DNA of 64,000 nucleotides from an uncultured Alphaproteobacteria bacterium (GTDB lineage: Bacteria > Pseudomonadota > Alphaproteobacteria > HIMB59 > GCA-002718135). The notes under the pieces were generated by a model. The model did no database searches and had not been told where the DNA came from. It worked only from the letters and a program-made list of their open reading frames with translations. Position numbers and translations under genes: made by a program. Positions 13,162 through 19,680 of this stretch are shown here, in pieces. The DNA lies in assembly GCA_902620285.1 (NCBI GenBank), contig CACNHT010000001.1, forward strand, positions 45,599 through 109,598. Reading direction: 5' to 3'. Positions within the stretch are counted from its first letter, which is position 1, and each line of letters starts with the position of its first letter.

Positions 13162-13980
13162 ATGTTAGCCGACCTTACAATTTTAAATATTATTTCTTTT
13201 TTATTAATTTTTTTCATTGGTCTTCCCCATGGTTCATTTGATGGTGCGGTTGCCTCTTTAGTAGGTTTTAGTAACAGAATTCAATTTCTACAATTCATAT
13301 TTTATTACCTAATTTTATTTTTTCTAGTCATTCTATTTTGGTTATATTTTCCTATTATTGCACTAACGATTTTTATTATAATGACTATTGCTCATTTTGG
13401 ATTATGTGATTGGACAAATTTTAAAATAAATAAATATAAGTATTCTATAAGTTTTACTTATGGAATGACTATTATTTTTGGAATAATATTTTTCAACGAA
13501 GATCAATCTTTTTTGATATTTGAATATCTGACAAATAATAATATTTATTCAATCCAAAAATATTTTTTTATCCCATATTTTTTAACATTATTATCTATAA
13601 TATATTTTATTTATCTTTCCTTCTTTGAAAAGAAATTACGAAAAGGAATTATTGAGATTCTATTTCTTTTATTAATTTTTTATTTTTTTGATCCATTACT
13701 AAGCTTTGCAATATACTTCTGTTTTTTTCATACTTACAAACATTTAAAACATTTGATTAAAAATATTTATTTAAATTTAAAAAATAAAAAATTTGTGATT
13801 TACTCCACGATAATTTTTACAGTAATTTCTTGGATTGGGGGTTTAGGAATTGCTTACTATTTAATTCAGAATTTATCATTATATGAGTCAATATTAAAAG
13901 TAATTTTCATTGGACTTGCTGCTTTAACCCTTCCTCATATGTTACTTGTTGATATTGTCTACAGAAGAAGATTTAAATAA
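13162..13980 (+). CDS. blh: Brp/Blh-family beta-carotene 15,15'-dioxygenase
   Basis: A 272-aa integral membrane enzyme (about seven hydrophobic segments) that cleaves beta-carotene to two retinals, the chromophore of microbial rhodopsins. The conserved histidine motifs are present in order: IGLPHGSFDGAVA (about 20-32), TIAHFGLCDWTNF (about 75-87), YFCFFHTYKHLKH (about 190-202) and LTLPHMLLVDIVYR (about 253-266). It is the last gene of the carotenoid operon. A rhodopsin gene is not in the window, so this operon and the rhodopsin locus must be separate, unlike the linked arrangement in many marine bacteria. Confidence 0.95.
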   Translation: MLADLTILNIISFLLIFFIGLPHGSFDGAVASLVGFSNRIQFLQFIFYYLILFFLVILFWLYFPIIALTIFIIMTIAHFGLCDWTNFKINKYKYSISFTYGMTIIFGIIFFNEDQSFLIFEYLTNNNIYSIQKYFFIPYFLTLLSIIYFIYLSFFEKKLRKGIIEILFLLLIFYFFDPLLSFAIYFCFFHTYKHLKHLIKNIYLNLKNKKFVIYSTIIFTVISWIGGLGIAYYLIQNLSLYESILKVIFIGLAALTLPHMLLVDIVYRRRFK

Positions 13981-14034: not shown

Positions 14035-14109
14035 GCGGGCGTAGCTCAGGGGTAGAGCGCAACCTTGCCAAGGTTGAAGTCGAGGGTTCGAATCCCTTCG
14101 CCCGCTCCA
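14035..14109 (+). tRNA. tRNA-Gly (anticodon GCC)
   Basis: A complete cloverleaf. The acceptor arm GCGGGCG pairs with CGCCCGC (14099-14105). Anticodon stem CAACC/GGTTG encloses loop TTGCCAA with anticodon GCC. The T arm GAGGG-TTCGAAT-CCCTT is intact, discriminator T at 14106, and CCA is encoded at 14107-14109. A TTGACT hexamer at 13997-14002 may be its -35 element, but no clear -10 sits at the expected distance. The 3' 52 bases are repeated at 14811-14862 (see there), which suggests this tRNA served as an integration target. Confidence 0.97.
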
Positions 14110-14155
14110 AGAGATCCGCCAAATATTAGATCTTGCAGAGTTAGCGAAACGGACT

Positions 14156-14174
14156 CATCGACACTACATCGACA
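14156..14174 (+). repeat. 19-bp direct repeat, copy 1
   Basis: CATCGACACTACATCGACA, itself containing CATCGACA twice, recurs as CATCGACACTATATAGACA at 14714-14732 with two mismatches. The two copies flank the 142-aa gene and lie inside the tRNA-Gly repeats. Confidence 0.75.
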
Positions 14175-14281
14175 GAAATTATAACTTCTTTTAACACTTT
14201 ATATATGAGTAGTAATAGTTTTGGTTGTTCGATAGTAAATTTTGAAGAAAAGATTAAAAAAAAATAGACAAAGTTTAATCT

Positions 14282-14710
14282 ATGCTTGATAATAAATGTG
14301 TGGGTAAACTTTTTTATGTTGCGTTATTTATTTATTTAATAGCACCCTCTACACTTTTTGCACAAGACGATTTGTCTGGTAAGGGGATCTTCTGCTATAA
14401 AGAAGACGAGTCAAGTGCAAGAGCTATTGGTGTAGAGTTTAGCACTAAAACTCAAGCAATTATTTATTTAGAAGAAAATACTGATCCAAGAAAACAAATT
14501 TATACATCTTATAAAACTTCAGCTGAACAAGTTGTTATAAAGGATTTGTCAGGATATTATGAGATTTATGTTAATAGAAAAAATTTAACAGTTGAGACAT
14601 CGCGGCAGGGTTATTGGTTTGGAAAATTTTGTATTATTGTTGAGCCTAAAGAATTAGAAAATCTATTTATAAAAAGTTTTTCTAAGTTTAAACAGGGCAA
14701 CATTCTTTAA
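14282..14710 (+). CDS. Small secreted protein of unknown function
   Basis: 142 aa. I do not recognise a named family. A clear signal peptide (hydrophobic residues about 9-26, ending TLFAQ) predicts export, and the mature part is about 115 aa with two cysteines (Cys37 in GIFCYKED and one in KFCIIVEP) that could form a disulfide. Its pattern of short beta strands with YEIYVNRKNLTVET resembles small secreted orphans I associate with SAR11-type genomes, but that is an impression only. It stands alone between the tRNA-Gly repeats, flanked by the 19-bp direct repeats, so it may be cargo of an inserted element. It has ordinary local base composition. Confidence 0.7.
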   Translation: MLDNKCVGKLFYVALFIYLIAPSTLFAQDDLSGKGIFCYKEDESSARAIGVEFSTKTQAIIYLEENTDPRKQIYTSYKTSAEQVVIKDLSGYYEIYVNRKNLTVETSRQGYWFGKFCIIVEPKELENLFIKSFSKFKQGNIL

Positions 14711-14713
14711 GTC

Positions 14714-14732
14714 CATCGACACTATATAGACA
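14714..14732 (+). repeat. 19-bp direct repeat, copy 2
   Basis: CATCGACACTATATAGACA begins 4 nt after the stop of the secreted-protein gene and matches 14156-14174 at 17 of 19 positions, same orientation. Confidence 0.75.
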
Positions 14733-14810
14733 CTCAGCATAAAAAAAATAAAATAGACAGAATATTATGTTATATTTTTATAAGGATTATGGTGAGTAAG
14801 TTCGTACCTG

Positions 14811-14862
14811 GCAACCTTGCCAAGGTTGAAGTCGAGAATTCGAATCCCTTCGCCCGCTCCAA
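14811..14862 (+). repeat. Partial second copy of tRNA-Gly (3' half, att-like)
   Basis: These 52 bases match 14059-14110 except for GG to AA at 14837-14838. They cover the anticodon arm, variable region, T arm, acceptor 3' strand and CCA. The 5' half of a tRNA is missing (no GCGGGCG or D arm upstream), and the AA change breaks two T-stem pairs, so it is not a working tRNA. Best read as the far-side attachment site of an insertion into tRNA-Gly. Confidence 0.85.
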
Positions 14863-15045
14863 ATCCCAATTCCACCTTTATTTTTTAAAATCCATTTGCA
14901 ATTAAGTTGCAATGCAGTTTTACTATTTTGATCATTTAAAAATTAATATAGCAACTAAAGAATTTAATGATTGGGTACATCAAAAATAAATCCTATACTT
15001 TTAATACTTCCATAAATGATTGTTTTTTCTTCATCTTTATAACCA
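14863..15045. other. Non-coding or remnant stretch after the tRNA-Gly repeat
   Basis: Together with 14711-14862 this is the only gap over 300 bases without a confident gene. On the minus strand, 14972 to about 15067 is open in a frame one base off the FkbM methyltransferase and would extend its C-terminus by about 30 residues. On the plus strand a 38-codon frame (14789-14905) with an AAGGA upstream runs through the tRNA remnant. Neither is convincing as an independent gene. Confidence 0.5.
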
Positions 15046-17355: not shown

Positions 17356-17958
17356 TTATTTAGTTTTCATACTTATTCTAATGTTAAAACTTATGACTAT
17401 TCTTTCATCTTTAGAAAGATTTTCATTAACAGAATGATCTAAATAACTTGGAAATAATACTAATGCACCCTCTTTAGGGCTTATACCGTTTACTTGAGCG
17501 TTTAATGAATTTGGTGTTGTAGCGTTTGGGTGAGAATAAATTGGCGCAGGTCTAGGGTCATAAAAAATAATATCACCAGAATTTTCTGGAGCTCTAACAT
17601 AATAAGCTCCACTTACAGTGCTATTCCCATGCTGATGTCGCAAGTTTGCTGAACCACCTGTATTTACAATTGCCCACATATTACTAATTTTAGCTATTTG
17701 TTTTTTTGTATCCCAATTCATATCAATCATTAATTGTTCAATATGCTTTGATATAAAAAAGATAAAATTTTGAGGTTCTTTTTCATTAAGATCAAAATCT
17801 CTAGAATGCCATCCCTTTATATTGCTCTTATTTATTCCAACTTGATCACTACTTTGTTGTTTTTTTATATATTCATAAATTTCCTCATTAATTTTCTTAT
17901 AATTATCAAGCTGTATAGTCCAAACAGGCGTGGGGAAAAAAAGATTTGGTTTAGTCAT
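17356..17958 (-). CDS. Putative 2OG-Fe(II) oxygenase (TIGR02466-like)
   Basis: 200 aa. Matches my recollection of the TIGR02466/2OG-Fe(II) oxygenase family, widespread in marine bacteria and phages. It begins LFFPTPVWTIQL, has LRHQHGNSTVSGAYYVRAP (about 106-124), GDIIFYDPRPAP, EGALVLFPSYLDHSVNEN with the second iron-ligand His, and ERIVISFNIRI with the arginine that would bind 2-oxoglutarate. Substrate unknown. It is convergent with the glycosyltransferase gene (19-nt gap). It may be part of the accessory patch between tRNA-Gly and purH. Confidence 0.8.
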   Translation of the reverse strand: MTKPNLFFPTPVWTIQLDNYKKINEEIYEYIKKQQSSDQVGINKSNIKGWHSRDFDLNEKEPQNFIFFISKHIEQLMIDMNWDTKKQIAKISNMWAIVNTGGSANLRHQHGNSTVSGAYYVRAPENSGDIIFYDPRPAPIYSHPNATTPNSLNAQVNGISPKEGALVLFPSYLDHSVNENLSKDERIVISFNIRISMKTK

Positions 17959-18033: not shown

Positions 18034-18177
18034 TTATTTAATATTAAAATATTTTTTTATTAGCATAACAGTTCTAATAATTCGTTGATGGTGTTTGTCA
18101 AAGTTTTTTCTTCCTGATACAATATGTGGATACTTTGAAATTAAATTCTTTACATATTTTGGCAGTTTTTTTTTCAA
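18034..18177 (-). CDS. Possible small basic protein following purH
   Basis: A 47-codon frame starting at a TTG that overlaps the purH stop (TTGA) and followed by an A9 run: reads KKKLPKYVKNLISKYPHIVS, then a basic tail with FDKHHQRIIRTVMLIKKYF. The composition is unlike random AT-rich sequence (P, H, R, G, Q present) and the coupling overlap favours a real gene. It is short and starts at TTG, and I do not recognise it. It could also be the tail of a decayed gene. Confidence 0.4.
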   Translation of the reverse strand: MKKKLPKYVKNLISKYPHIVSGRKNFDKHHQRIIRTVMLIKKYFNIK

Positions 18178-19091
18178 TGTTTGAATAGTCGATTTTTGAT
18201 AAAATAGAGAGATACTTTATTGTTGTTCGCAAAAGAAATTATTTTATCATCATTAATTGATCCATTTGGTTGAGCAACTGTATTACAACCATTTTTACTT
18301 AATAAATTAATGCTATCAGTAAAAGGGAAAAAGCCATCTGAGGCACATACATAAGGTTTATTTTTAAAGAAACTTTTTTTGTTTTTAATAGCGGATTTCA
18401 ATGCATCGACTCTATTAGTTTGTCCATGCCCTAGACCAAGAGTCTGTTTGTTATTTGCTAAAACCACAGCATTTGATTTTAAATGTTTAACTACTTTTAT
18501 TGAGAAAATTAAATCTTCTAGCACTTTTATTTTAGCACTTTTTTTTGAAGCCAATTTTAAAAAATTTTTATTTATAGGTTTCAAATCTCTAGATTGGTAA
18601 AGATCACCGAATAAAGTTGATTTATAATCTATAGTTTTTTTAACAATTTTTGGAGATTTCATTAAAATCAAGTTTTTCTTTGTTTTCAAAATATTTATAG
18701 AATCAACAGAAAATTCTGGAGCAACTACCATTTCAAAAAATTTTTTGCGAATATTTTTTGCCAACTCTAATTTTACTTTTCTATTTAAAAAAATTATTCC
18801 GCCAAAGGCACTTTTGCTATCACTTTCATAAGATTTTTTAAATGCCCTAGTTATATCTCCAGATGATGCTACACCACATGGATTTGTATGTTTCATTATT
18901 ATAGATGTCGGCTCATTAAACTCACTAATACATCTTATTCCACTATCAAGATCAAGAATATTATTATAACTTATTAATTTACCACTAATTTGATTACTAA
19001 AAATAGATTCTTTATCATGATTAATTATATAAGCATCTTGGTTTGGATTTTCTCCATACCTAAGTGTTTTTTTATTATATTTATTTTTCAT
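18174..19091 (-). CDS. purH: PurH C-terminal half: AICAR transformylase as a separate ORF
   Basis: 305 aa covering the whole AICAR formyltransferase domain, which adds formyl from 10-formyl-THF to AICAR in purine synthesis. Motifs: LRYGENPNQDAYI at 10-22, IIMKHTNPCGVASSG with the catalytic Lys-His pair, SKSAFGGIIF, NAVVLANNKQTLGLGHGQTN, CASDGFFPFTDSINLL and TVAQPNGSINDD. The C-terminus LYFIKNRLFKH corresponds to the usual VFTGVRHFRH end. Normally this is fused behind IMP cyclohydrolase. Here it has its own ATG, in the +1 frame and overlapping the upstream stop by 11 nt. There is no obvious Shine-Dalgarno, so expression probably relies on coupling. Confidence 0.93.
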   Translation of the reverse strand: MKNKYNKKTLRYGENPNQDAYIINHDKESIFSNQISGKLISYNNILDLDSGIRCISEFNEPTSIIMKHTNPCGVASSGDITRAFKKSYESDSKSAFGGIIFLNRKVKLELAKNIRKKFFEMVVAPEFSVDSINILKTKKNLILMKSPKIVKKTIDYKSTLFGDLYQSRDLKPINKNFLKLASKKSAKIKVLEDLIFSIKVVKHLKSNAVVLANNKQTLGLGHGQTNRVDALKSAIKNKKSFFKNKPYVCASDGFFPFTDSINLLSKNGCNTVAQPNGSINDDKIISFANNNKVSLYFIKNRLFKH

Positions 19092-19680
19092 TGAGCCAAT
19101 TGTAAATTATCTTATCATATTTAGAGGTTTCTTTAAAAACTTTTGAGCTCATTTTTTTTCTAAAGTAAAAATCTGTCTCACCATTGTTTTTTTCTAAATT
19201 TTTTATCAATTTTGAATAATCTTTAGGATTAATAATAGGTGTAATATATTTATAATTTTTACTTGCCGCACGAAGTAGAGATGGCCCACCAATATCTATC
19301 ATTTCAATTAAGTTTTTATTCTCTTTTTTATTTAAAAATTTTTTAAATGGATACAAATTAACAATCACAACATCAATTTTAGGAAAATCTAGAGATTCAA
19401 ACTGTTTTTTGTGAATTGGATCATTTCTAACGTATAGTAAAGAACTATAAATTAAAGGGTTTAAAGTTTTTACTCTACCCCCAAACATTTCTTTAAATTT
19501 TGTAAGCTTTGAAACATCAATACATTTAAAACCCATAGATCGAATTTTATCACCAGTAGATCCACTAGATATAAAATTAAAATTATATTTTTCCAAGTTA
19601 GAGCAAAGTTGCTTTAAGTTAGTTTTGTCAAATACTGAAATTAAAGCAAATTTTTTTTCTATATTTTTTCTAACGACCAT
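19081..19680 (-). CDS. purH: PurH N-terminal half: IMP cyclohydrolase as a separate ORF
   Basis: 199 aa covering the MGS-like IMP cyclohydrolase domain, the last step of de novo purine synthesis. Motifs: FALISVFDKTNLKQLC, FISSGSTGDKI, FKEMFGGRVKTLNP, VVIVNLYPF and EMIDIGGPSLLRAASKNYKY. The residues I recall as catalytic in the family (the Lys of RVKTL, Tyr of LYPF, Asp of MIDIGG, Lys of RAASKN) are present, but the usual His in KTLHP is Asn. It ends NWLNEK-stop just before the usual inter-domain linker. Its start overlaps the heparinase-like gene by 22 nt. The two halves total 504 aa, close to a normal fused PurH. Confidence 0.93.
   Translation of the reverse strand: MVVRKNIEKKFALISVFDKTNLKQLCSNLEKYNFNFISSGSTGDKIRSMGFKCIDVSKLTKFKEMFGGRVKTLNPLIYSSLLYVRNDPIHKKQFESLDFPKIDVVIVNLYPFKKFLNKKENKNLIEMIDIGGPSLLRAASKNYKYITPIINPKDYSKLIKNLEKNNGETDFYFRKKMSSKVFKETSKYDKIIYNWLNEK

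Follow-up and report, generated by a model that had tools for sequence, protein, structure and literature searches.

How did a second copy of the 3′ half of a tRNA gene come to lie downstream of the first, and what is the DNA that separates them? This question is raised by a tRNA-Gly(GCC) gene in the window, as we call the whole stretch of 64,000 nucleotides that was analysed. The original prediction read the layout as a tRNA-targeted insertion that lacks an integrase, that is, either a mini cargo element or one end of a larger element that later lost its core. The evidence gathered here favours the mini cargo element. Most likely, the segment from 14110 to 14862 is an integrase-less, single-gene, CIME-like mobile unit at tRNA-Gly(GCC) that is moved in trans, although neither excision nor a helper nor a vehicle has been shown. 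It is also likely to be the tRNA-proximal member of a tandem array that acts as a gene-exchange hot spot throughout the genus. This genus is inferred to be SAR11/Pelagibacter from the relatives of the window and from the carotenoid genes and blh found upstream. The window genome comprises 1.38 Mb in 54 contigs and is 80% complete. The features on which the argument rests are collected in the table.

Table. Features at and around the tRNA-Gly locus of the window (positions are those of the whole stretch).
Feature	Position	Strand	Evidence	Remark
blh/BCD, beta-carotene 15,15'-dioxygenase	13162..13980	+	Pfam PF15461, E 1.3e-50	conserved left flank
intact tRNA-Gly(GCC)	14035..14109	+	ARAGORN; Rfam RF00005, 70.9 bits	integration target, left boundary of unit
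left core (attL)	14059..14110	+	52-bp repeat	tRNA 3′ half, anticodon stem to past CCA
left arm-type site pair CATCGACA-cta-CATCGACA	14156..14174	+	11-bp period	
cargo gene, 142-aa protein	14282..14710	+	ORF	signal-peptide-like N terminus
right arm-type site pair CATCGACAcTATATAGACA	14714..14732	+	17/19 vs left arm pair	
element-side sequence just before right core	14781..14810	+		common to other units' right ends
right core (attR)	14811..14862	+	50/52; anticodon stem-loop perfect	displaced tRNA 3′ half
left end of further, apparently older unit	14863..14925	+		left-end class of 38
2OG-Fe(II) oxygenase	17356..17958	-	Pfam PF13759	first gene of conserved right flank

The two cores form a direct repeat with a spacing of 752 bp, and the 52-bp copy with two mismatches that had been predicted was confirmed. 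The right core begins exactly at the anticodon stem, and the stem-loop CAACC-TTGCCAA-GGTTG is unaltered in it; the two mismatches change GG to AA and break the T stem. No tRNA was called at the second copy by ARAGORN or Rfam, and the sequence found there shares 6/24 identities with the tRNA 5′ half. Thus, a degraded tandem tRNA with a recognisable 5′ half, which would have refuted the prediction, was not found. In most arrays, identity starts from the anticodon stem, and on this basis strand exchange is presumed, but has not been shown, to occur in the anticodon loop TTGCCAA (14065-14071).

Between the two cores of the window there is a single ORF of at least 60 aa. The 30 bp that precede the right core are 24/30 identical to the flanks of copy 1 in L090, copy 1 in L064 and copy 2 in L058, whereas the best of 20,000 random 30-mers reached 18. 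Immediately beyond the right core, the left end of a further unit carries an arm pair, TTGCAATtaagTTGCAAT, at 14896-14913, and it appears to be the remnant of an older insertion, as inferred from its sequence. No further core copy lies between this end and the conserved right flank in the window region scanned. The stretch from 14110 to 14170 was also considered as the C-terminus of an integrase and rejected: it contains stops in relatives, is conserved as a DNA element end and has no Pfam match.

In addition to the cores, a pair of 19-bp direct repeats had been predicted within the segment. This pair was confirmed, and each of its two members is read as a pair of arm-type sites, one at either unit end, at 14156 and 14714, both built on CATCGACA. 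Paired repeats of such geometry are the arm-type sites of tyrosine integrases. The unit-end repeats are interpreted in the same way from their geometry, and no binding data exist. When up to two mismatches are allowed, the window motif CATCGACACTACATCGACA occurs at four places in 102 genomes, all of them beside a tRNA-Gly or a 3′ copy. Two of these are the ends of the window unit; the third adjoins the intact tRNA-Gly in G045, and the fourth adjoins a 3′-half copy in G088. The reversed control gave 0 matches in the same 102 genomes. Across the genus, left ends contain repeat pairs of about 8 bp with an 11-bp period, placed 20-80 bp inside the core. Pairs of 7/8 or better were observed in 60/81 representative left ends versus 42/380 internal controls. 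The right end of a unit often repeats its left-end pair (mean score 11.7 within a unit against 8.7 for cross pairs), and many arm specificities are found around one constant core.

Little can be said about the cargo of the window unit. The prediction of one signal-peptide protein between the copies holds insofar as the 142-aa product is signal-peptide-like by a simple hydropathy rule; its export is inferred only from sequence. It has no Pfam or PHROG match, and its structure is poorly predicted (pLDDT 43). A search for it elsewhere yielded one relative in 102 genomes, with 32% identity, and this protein is also cargo, inside a unit of the tRNA-Gly array of G058. Nothing close was found in public genomes and viral contigs, in scans sensitive to close relatives only.

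The window is one case of a layout that extends through the genus. A search of 102 genomes retrieved 80 tRNA-Gly loci, which together with the window gave 81 loci and 1.34 Mb to scan. One to five extra 3′-half copies are present in 64 of the 81, and they mark off 116 units of 479-13,788 bp, boundaries that can be read directly from the DNA. All copies lie on the same strand as the tRNA. At a threshold of at least 30/52 matches there were 207 forward and 0 reverse hits, which excludes a chance origin of the core repeat. No copy was found within 2 kb upstream of tRNA-Gly in the 81 loci. Because contig ends truncate some arrays, all these counts are minima. Thus, the picture of an isolated insertion has to be refined to that of one unit within a genus-wide tandem array.

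The order of the locus is fixed: blh, tRNA-Gly, variable island, 2OG-Fe(II) oxygenase, purH, a heparinase-like gene and rsmB. In most genomes, blh lies 0.8-0.9 kb upstream of tRNA-Gly. Flank order is nearly constant across genomes, and the island between the flanks varies from 0.8 to about 15 kb. At the lower extreme are the near-empty loci L060, L088 and L111, with about 0.8 kb from the tRNA to the first flank gene, and in L111 even this stretch opens with a unit-like left end. Unbroken synteny with the same segment in all related genomes would have refuted an insertion. Among relatives of the genus (no same-species strain was available), flanking synteny is conserved and the segment is polymorphic; this polymorphism and the arms at both ends support the predicted integrase-less mini cargo element. 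Of the repeats sought elsewhere, the 52-bp core recurs genus-wide at tRNA-Gly and the 19-bp motif is confined to the four places given above.

Outside the genus, G103, from another genus of the family, has a tRNA-Gly locus with a 12.8-kb unit. In this locus (L132, 282-13049), the 12.8-kb element carries an integrase and a Prim-Pol/AAA protein, both of which were tested, as well as a sugar ABC transporter and two glutathione-synthesis-like genes that were named from sequence reading only. In the listed rows of public genomes, exact multi-copy core matches belong to SAR11-type records only, and Sphingomonadales and others have a single core copy. Multi-unit arrays were seen only at Gly among the loci examined, other tRNAs not having been surveyed systematically. 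Three integrase-holding loci, at tRNA-Gln(TTG), tRNA-Leu(CAA) and tRNA-Arg(ACG) (L137, L138 and L139), were chosen because an integrase is present; each has a single perfect 3′ copy 5-10 kb away, and the tRNA-Leu(CAA) locus also contains a second complete tRNA.

Two further observations concern the locus itself. The second copies in L093, L108, L039 and L047 are near-complete tRNA-Gly genes (72-73 of 75) with the first 2-3 bases missing, which suggests that exchange can also occur in another register, close to the 5′ end of the tRNA. In the right flank, purH (IMP cyclohydrolase/AICAR transformylase; 18174-19680, minus strand, in the window) was compared among 59 related genomes: in 41 it is divided between two ORFs that overlap and differ in frame, and in the other 18 it occupies a single frame. 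In most split versions, the second ORF starts from an ATG located within the end of the first (W-x-N-E-K*). To judge by this arrangement, the split looks less like a sequencing error than like a clean fission of the gene in which translation of the two parts is coupled.

If the units are mobile, the same unit should be found in different surroundings, and this is the case. Unit clusters recur in up to 15 arrays and at array positions u0 to u3. For instance, a sulfotransferase unit of 1.26-1.6 kb is present in units of 15 arrays at varied positions, and a unit of 0.56-0.60 kb that encodes an 86-aa protein is present in those of 13, also at varied positions; the two are found in both relative orders. 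In 51 pairs, a sequence that stands directly behind the intact tRNA in one genome is preceded by a 3′-half copy in the other. In most of 15 chosen pairs, the units are 97.6-99.9% identical versus 70-79% for purH where it was measurable. Thus, units have been transferred between species. When the first and last cores of each array were compared, the last was the more diverged in 19 arrays and the less diverged in 6, with 8 ties (sign test p=0.015, Wilcoxon p=0.003); insertion of new units at the tRNA would be expected to produce such a gradient. Recurrence, shuffled order, interspecies transfer and distal decay are all shown by the sequences themselves. No duplicated unit was seen within any one array. 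Separately, in L067_u1 and L064_u3 the 86-aa unit seems to be joined to the sulfotransferase unit with no intervening core.

What the arrays carry is mostly simple. A single ORF of 80 aa or more is present in 35 of 42 representative units under 1.5 kb, and genes may lie in either orientation within units. By the hydropathy rule, 74/161 cargo ORFs of up to 260 aa are signal-peptide-like versus 7/29 in the window backbone (p=0.04, with a small background). Among the products of larger units are restriction-modification systems of types I, II and III, McrBC, a PDC-S11 candidate and nucleases of the PD-(D/E)XK and HNH types; there is an alternative-oxidase unit as well. In the arrays L106 (G039) and L084 (G019), a family of small secreted-looking proteins repeats within and between units, with 18 copies in 11 units.

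Where, then, does the recombinase come from? A full-length tyrosine integrase is encoded in 9 of the 116 units and in none of the 69 units of up to 1.5 kb. Catalytic motifs are intact in most of these enzymes, their activity being inferred from sequence alone, and for the two that were scanned the best PHROG match was PHROG_1, phage integrases. Larger elements carry primases too (Prim-Pol in L132, DUF5906 in L077). Three left-end classes contain units with and without an integrase alike, a sharing of ends that is shown directly: GTGTGACA (6 with, 9 without), CTCCGACA (1 and 2) and TGTCGA (1, which is L132, and 4). In L068_u1 and L070_u0, the integrase leader and about 15 first codons are kept before unrelated cargo begins; the remnant reads MAYIKKRKHKFSTT, against MAYIKKRKHKLSTS in the L132 integrase. 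N-terminal integrase fragments of 82-130 aa are retained in six units. Shared ends and integrase remnants together mean that the small units are most simply explained as products of deletion in which the ends required for mobilisation have been preserved.

For the window unit itself this history is less direct. No integrase unit with its exact arm motif was found, and its class relatives hold only integrase-start remnants (L064_u4 and L093_u2); no such remnant is present in the window unit. Neither the unit nor the rest of the 80% complete window genome contains a detectable tyrosine recombinase, so the unit is possibly stranded at present.

The proposed mechanism is as follows. A tyrosine integrase, provided in trans by a related complete element, would bind the arm-type repeats at both ends of a unit and carry out strand exchange within the anticodon-loop part of the tRNA gene. 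The 3′ half brought by the incoming unit would restore the tRNA, and the displaced 3′ half would mark the far end. Each insertion would take place at the intact tRNA and move earlier units farther away from it, from which a decay of cores with distance would follow. Arm binding, the point of exchange, action in trans, excision and a vehicle between cells are all inferred.

A search for such a vehicle gave no candidate. The core with arms, an array integrase and the commonest cargo were each sought in phage and viral contigs without success, and phage integrases remained below 60% identity. There were 11 core-like matches in phage records (80-90% identity), 0 of them from pelagiphage. One contig with an exact core, IMGVR_UViG_3300037419_002267 (L126), was rejected as a vehicle, being GC-rich, phage-like and non-SAR11. 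In this contig, an intact tRNA-Gly that is identical to the SAR11 tRNA-Gly over 77-78 bp directly follows a 409-aa integrase-like gene.

Other explanations have to be weighed against integrase-driven movement. Perhaps the main cause of reshuffling in the array is homologous (unequal) recombination between the 52-bp repeats, dependent on RecA, the units being old elements that no longer use an integrase. Perfect 52-bp direct repeats exist in many arrays, and with identical repeats homologous recombination could indeed shuffle or delete units too; most genomes lack an array-borne integrase, and the two fused units without an intervening core would also fit. Nevertheless, this explanation is unlikely. 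Arm pairs are kept at both ends, in many specificities that match within a unit; the same units lie both at the intact tRNA and farther out, with cores that decay distally; single units are near-identical across distant species; and the within-array duplicates are missing. Similarly, the second copy might be the scar of a larger integrative element, a prophage or an ICE, whose core was deleted and which left the 142-aa gene behind, as the other version of the original prediction had it. The integrase-start remnants in L064_u4 and L093_u2, which share the arm class of the window, speak for it, and the lineage does probably descend from integrase-bearing elements. However, the lost-core version fits less well and is considered improbable because the unit retains its two ends, each with its arm, and with 752 bp has a length that is usual for these arrays. 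In addition, the sole relative of the 142-aa protein is also cargo of a tRNA-Gly unit, and units of 0.5-1.4 kb recur intact across species, so that small size is a stable mobile state.

Two simpler explanations fare worse. A degenerate tandem tRNA-Gly from local duplication would find some support in the units elsewhere that end in near-complete tRNA copies (72-73 of 75), but it is practically ruled out for the window, where the copy lacks a 5′ half, arms are present at both ends and unique cargo lies between. An artefact of single-cell or metagenome assembly is conceivable, as many of the relatives are single amplified genomes, which are prone to chimeras. It is nonetheless very improbable, since the layout, conserved flanks included, is shared by dozens of independent assemblies, and near-identical units were recovered independently of one another.

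Integrase-less movement in trans is thus preferred, and systems that resemble it have been described. CIMEs retain att-like boundaries, have lost their integration genes and accrete in tandem at the end of a target gene, and such integrase-less accretion is known (PMC5704250). The window unit agrees with CIMEs in that attL and attR are kept and integration and transfer genes are absent, while its descent from an integrating element is suggested only by the remnants in relatives of its arm class, and its mobilisation by another element is inferred. Classical CIMEs, however, derive from ICEs or IMEs and move in cis with a neighbour (PMC5704250), whereas array units are mostly 0.5-1.5 kb, hold one gene and recur alone at varied positions in many species; the gene lists examined contained no conjugative partner. 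The ssrA islands of Dehalococcoides are likewise arranged in tandem downstream of an RNA gene, with 3′-end repeats, adaptive cargo and, in some cases, no integration module (PMC3146451). They rely on a serine recombinase and tmRNA, in contrast to the tyrosine integrases, tRNA-Gly, much smaller units and many arm specificities of the SAR11 array (PMC3146451).

The additive fGI-2 of Methylopumilus also belongs to streamlined plankton; its 20-bp tRNA-Lys 3′ repeats recur, with mostly unknown genes in units of 330 bp to 42 kb (PMC10872708). The criterion of an additive fGI, recurring 3′-end repeats of one tRNA with variable units between them, is met here. Nevertheless, the tRNA and the bacterial class are different (PMC10872708), and arm sites, integrase-bearing relatives and cross-species shuffling of units are not described in the fGI-2 section of that paper. 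Tycheposons had been named as a possible parallel as well. Tycheposons are tRNA-anchored cargo elements in marine plankton, and the large units with an integrase and a primase are similar to them in layout. They are described as elements of 4-200 kb that contain a tyrosine recombinase (PMC10872708), and the label was rejected for the window unit, which has no recombinase and, with 752 bp, is far too small. Variable regions of SAR11 have been described before, one of them 'flanked by tRNA genes' and with no attC found (Wilhelm 2007; PMC2217521), and a 2025 paper reports a transferred phn operon in Pelagibacterales that has tRNA genes and tyrosine recombinases next to it (PMC12416821). Thus, elements without an integrase are already known to accrete at an RNA gene, while the tRNA-Gly array in SAR11 appears to be unreported, no description of it having been found in the open-access literature searched.

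A bolder reading is that this locus is an integron-like gene-capture platform of SAR11, with the window unit as one cassette; at present it could as easily prove wrong as right. It would involve a common pool of one-gene cassettes with several arm specificities and one core, served by the trans-acting integrases of occasional autonomous elements. As in integrons, one-gene units stand in tandem with recombination sites between them, their order is reshuffled and the integrase is separate from the cassettes. In contrast to integrons, tRNA 3′ halves with arm repeats take the place of attC, there is no fixed integron integrase and genes lie in either orientation. If this reading is true, the platform would supply restriction systems, secreted proteins, sulfotransferases and an alternative oxidase across species.

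SAR11 are among the most abundant bacteria in the ocean, with tiny, streamlined genomes, few known mobile elements and a large, unexplained variation in gene content. The variety of arm motifs around a constant core would allow the recognition of integrase-less units by integrases acting in trans to be tested. The tRNA-Gly locus also makes gene-content variation in SAR11 countable in metagenomes and single cells and, as one easily typed locus with movement of units between species, it provides a concrete route for part of that variation.
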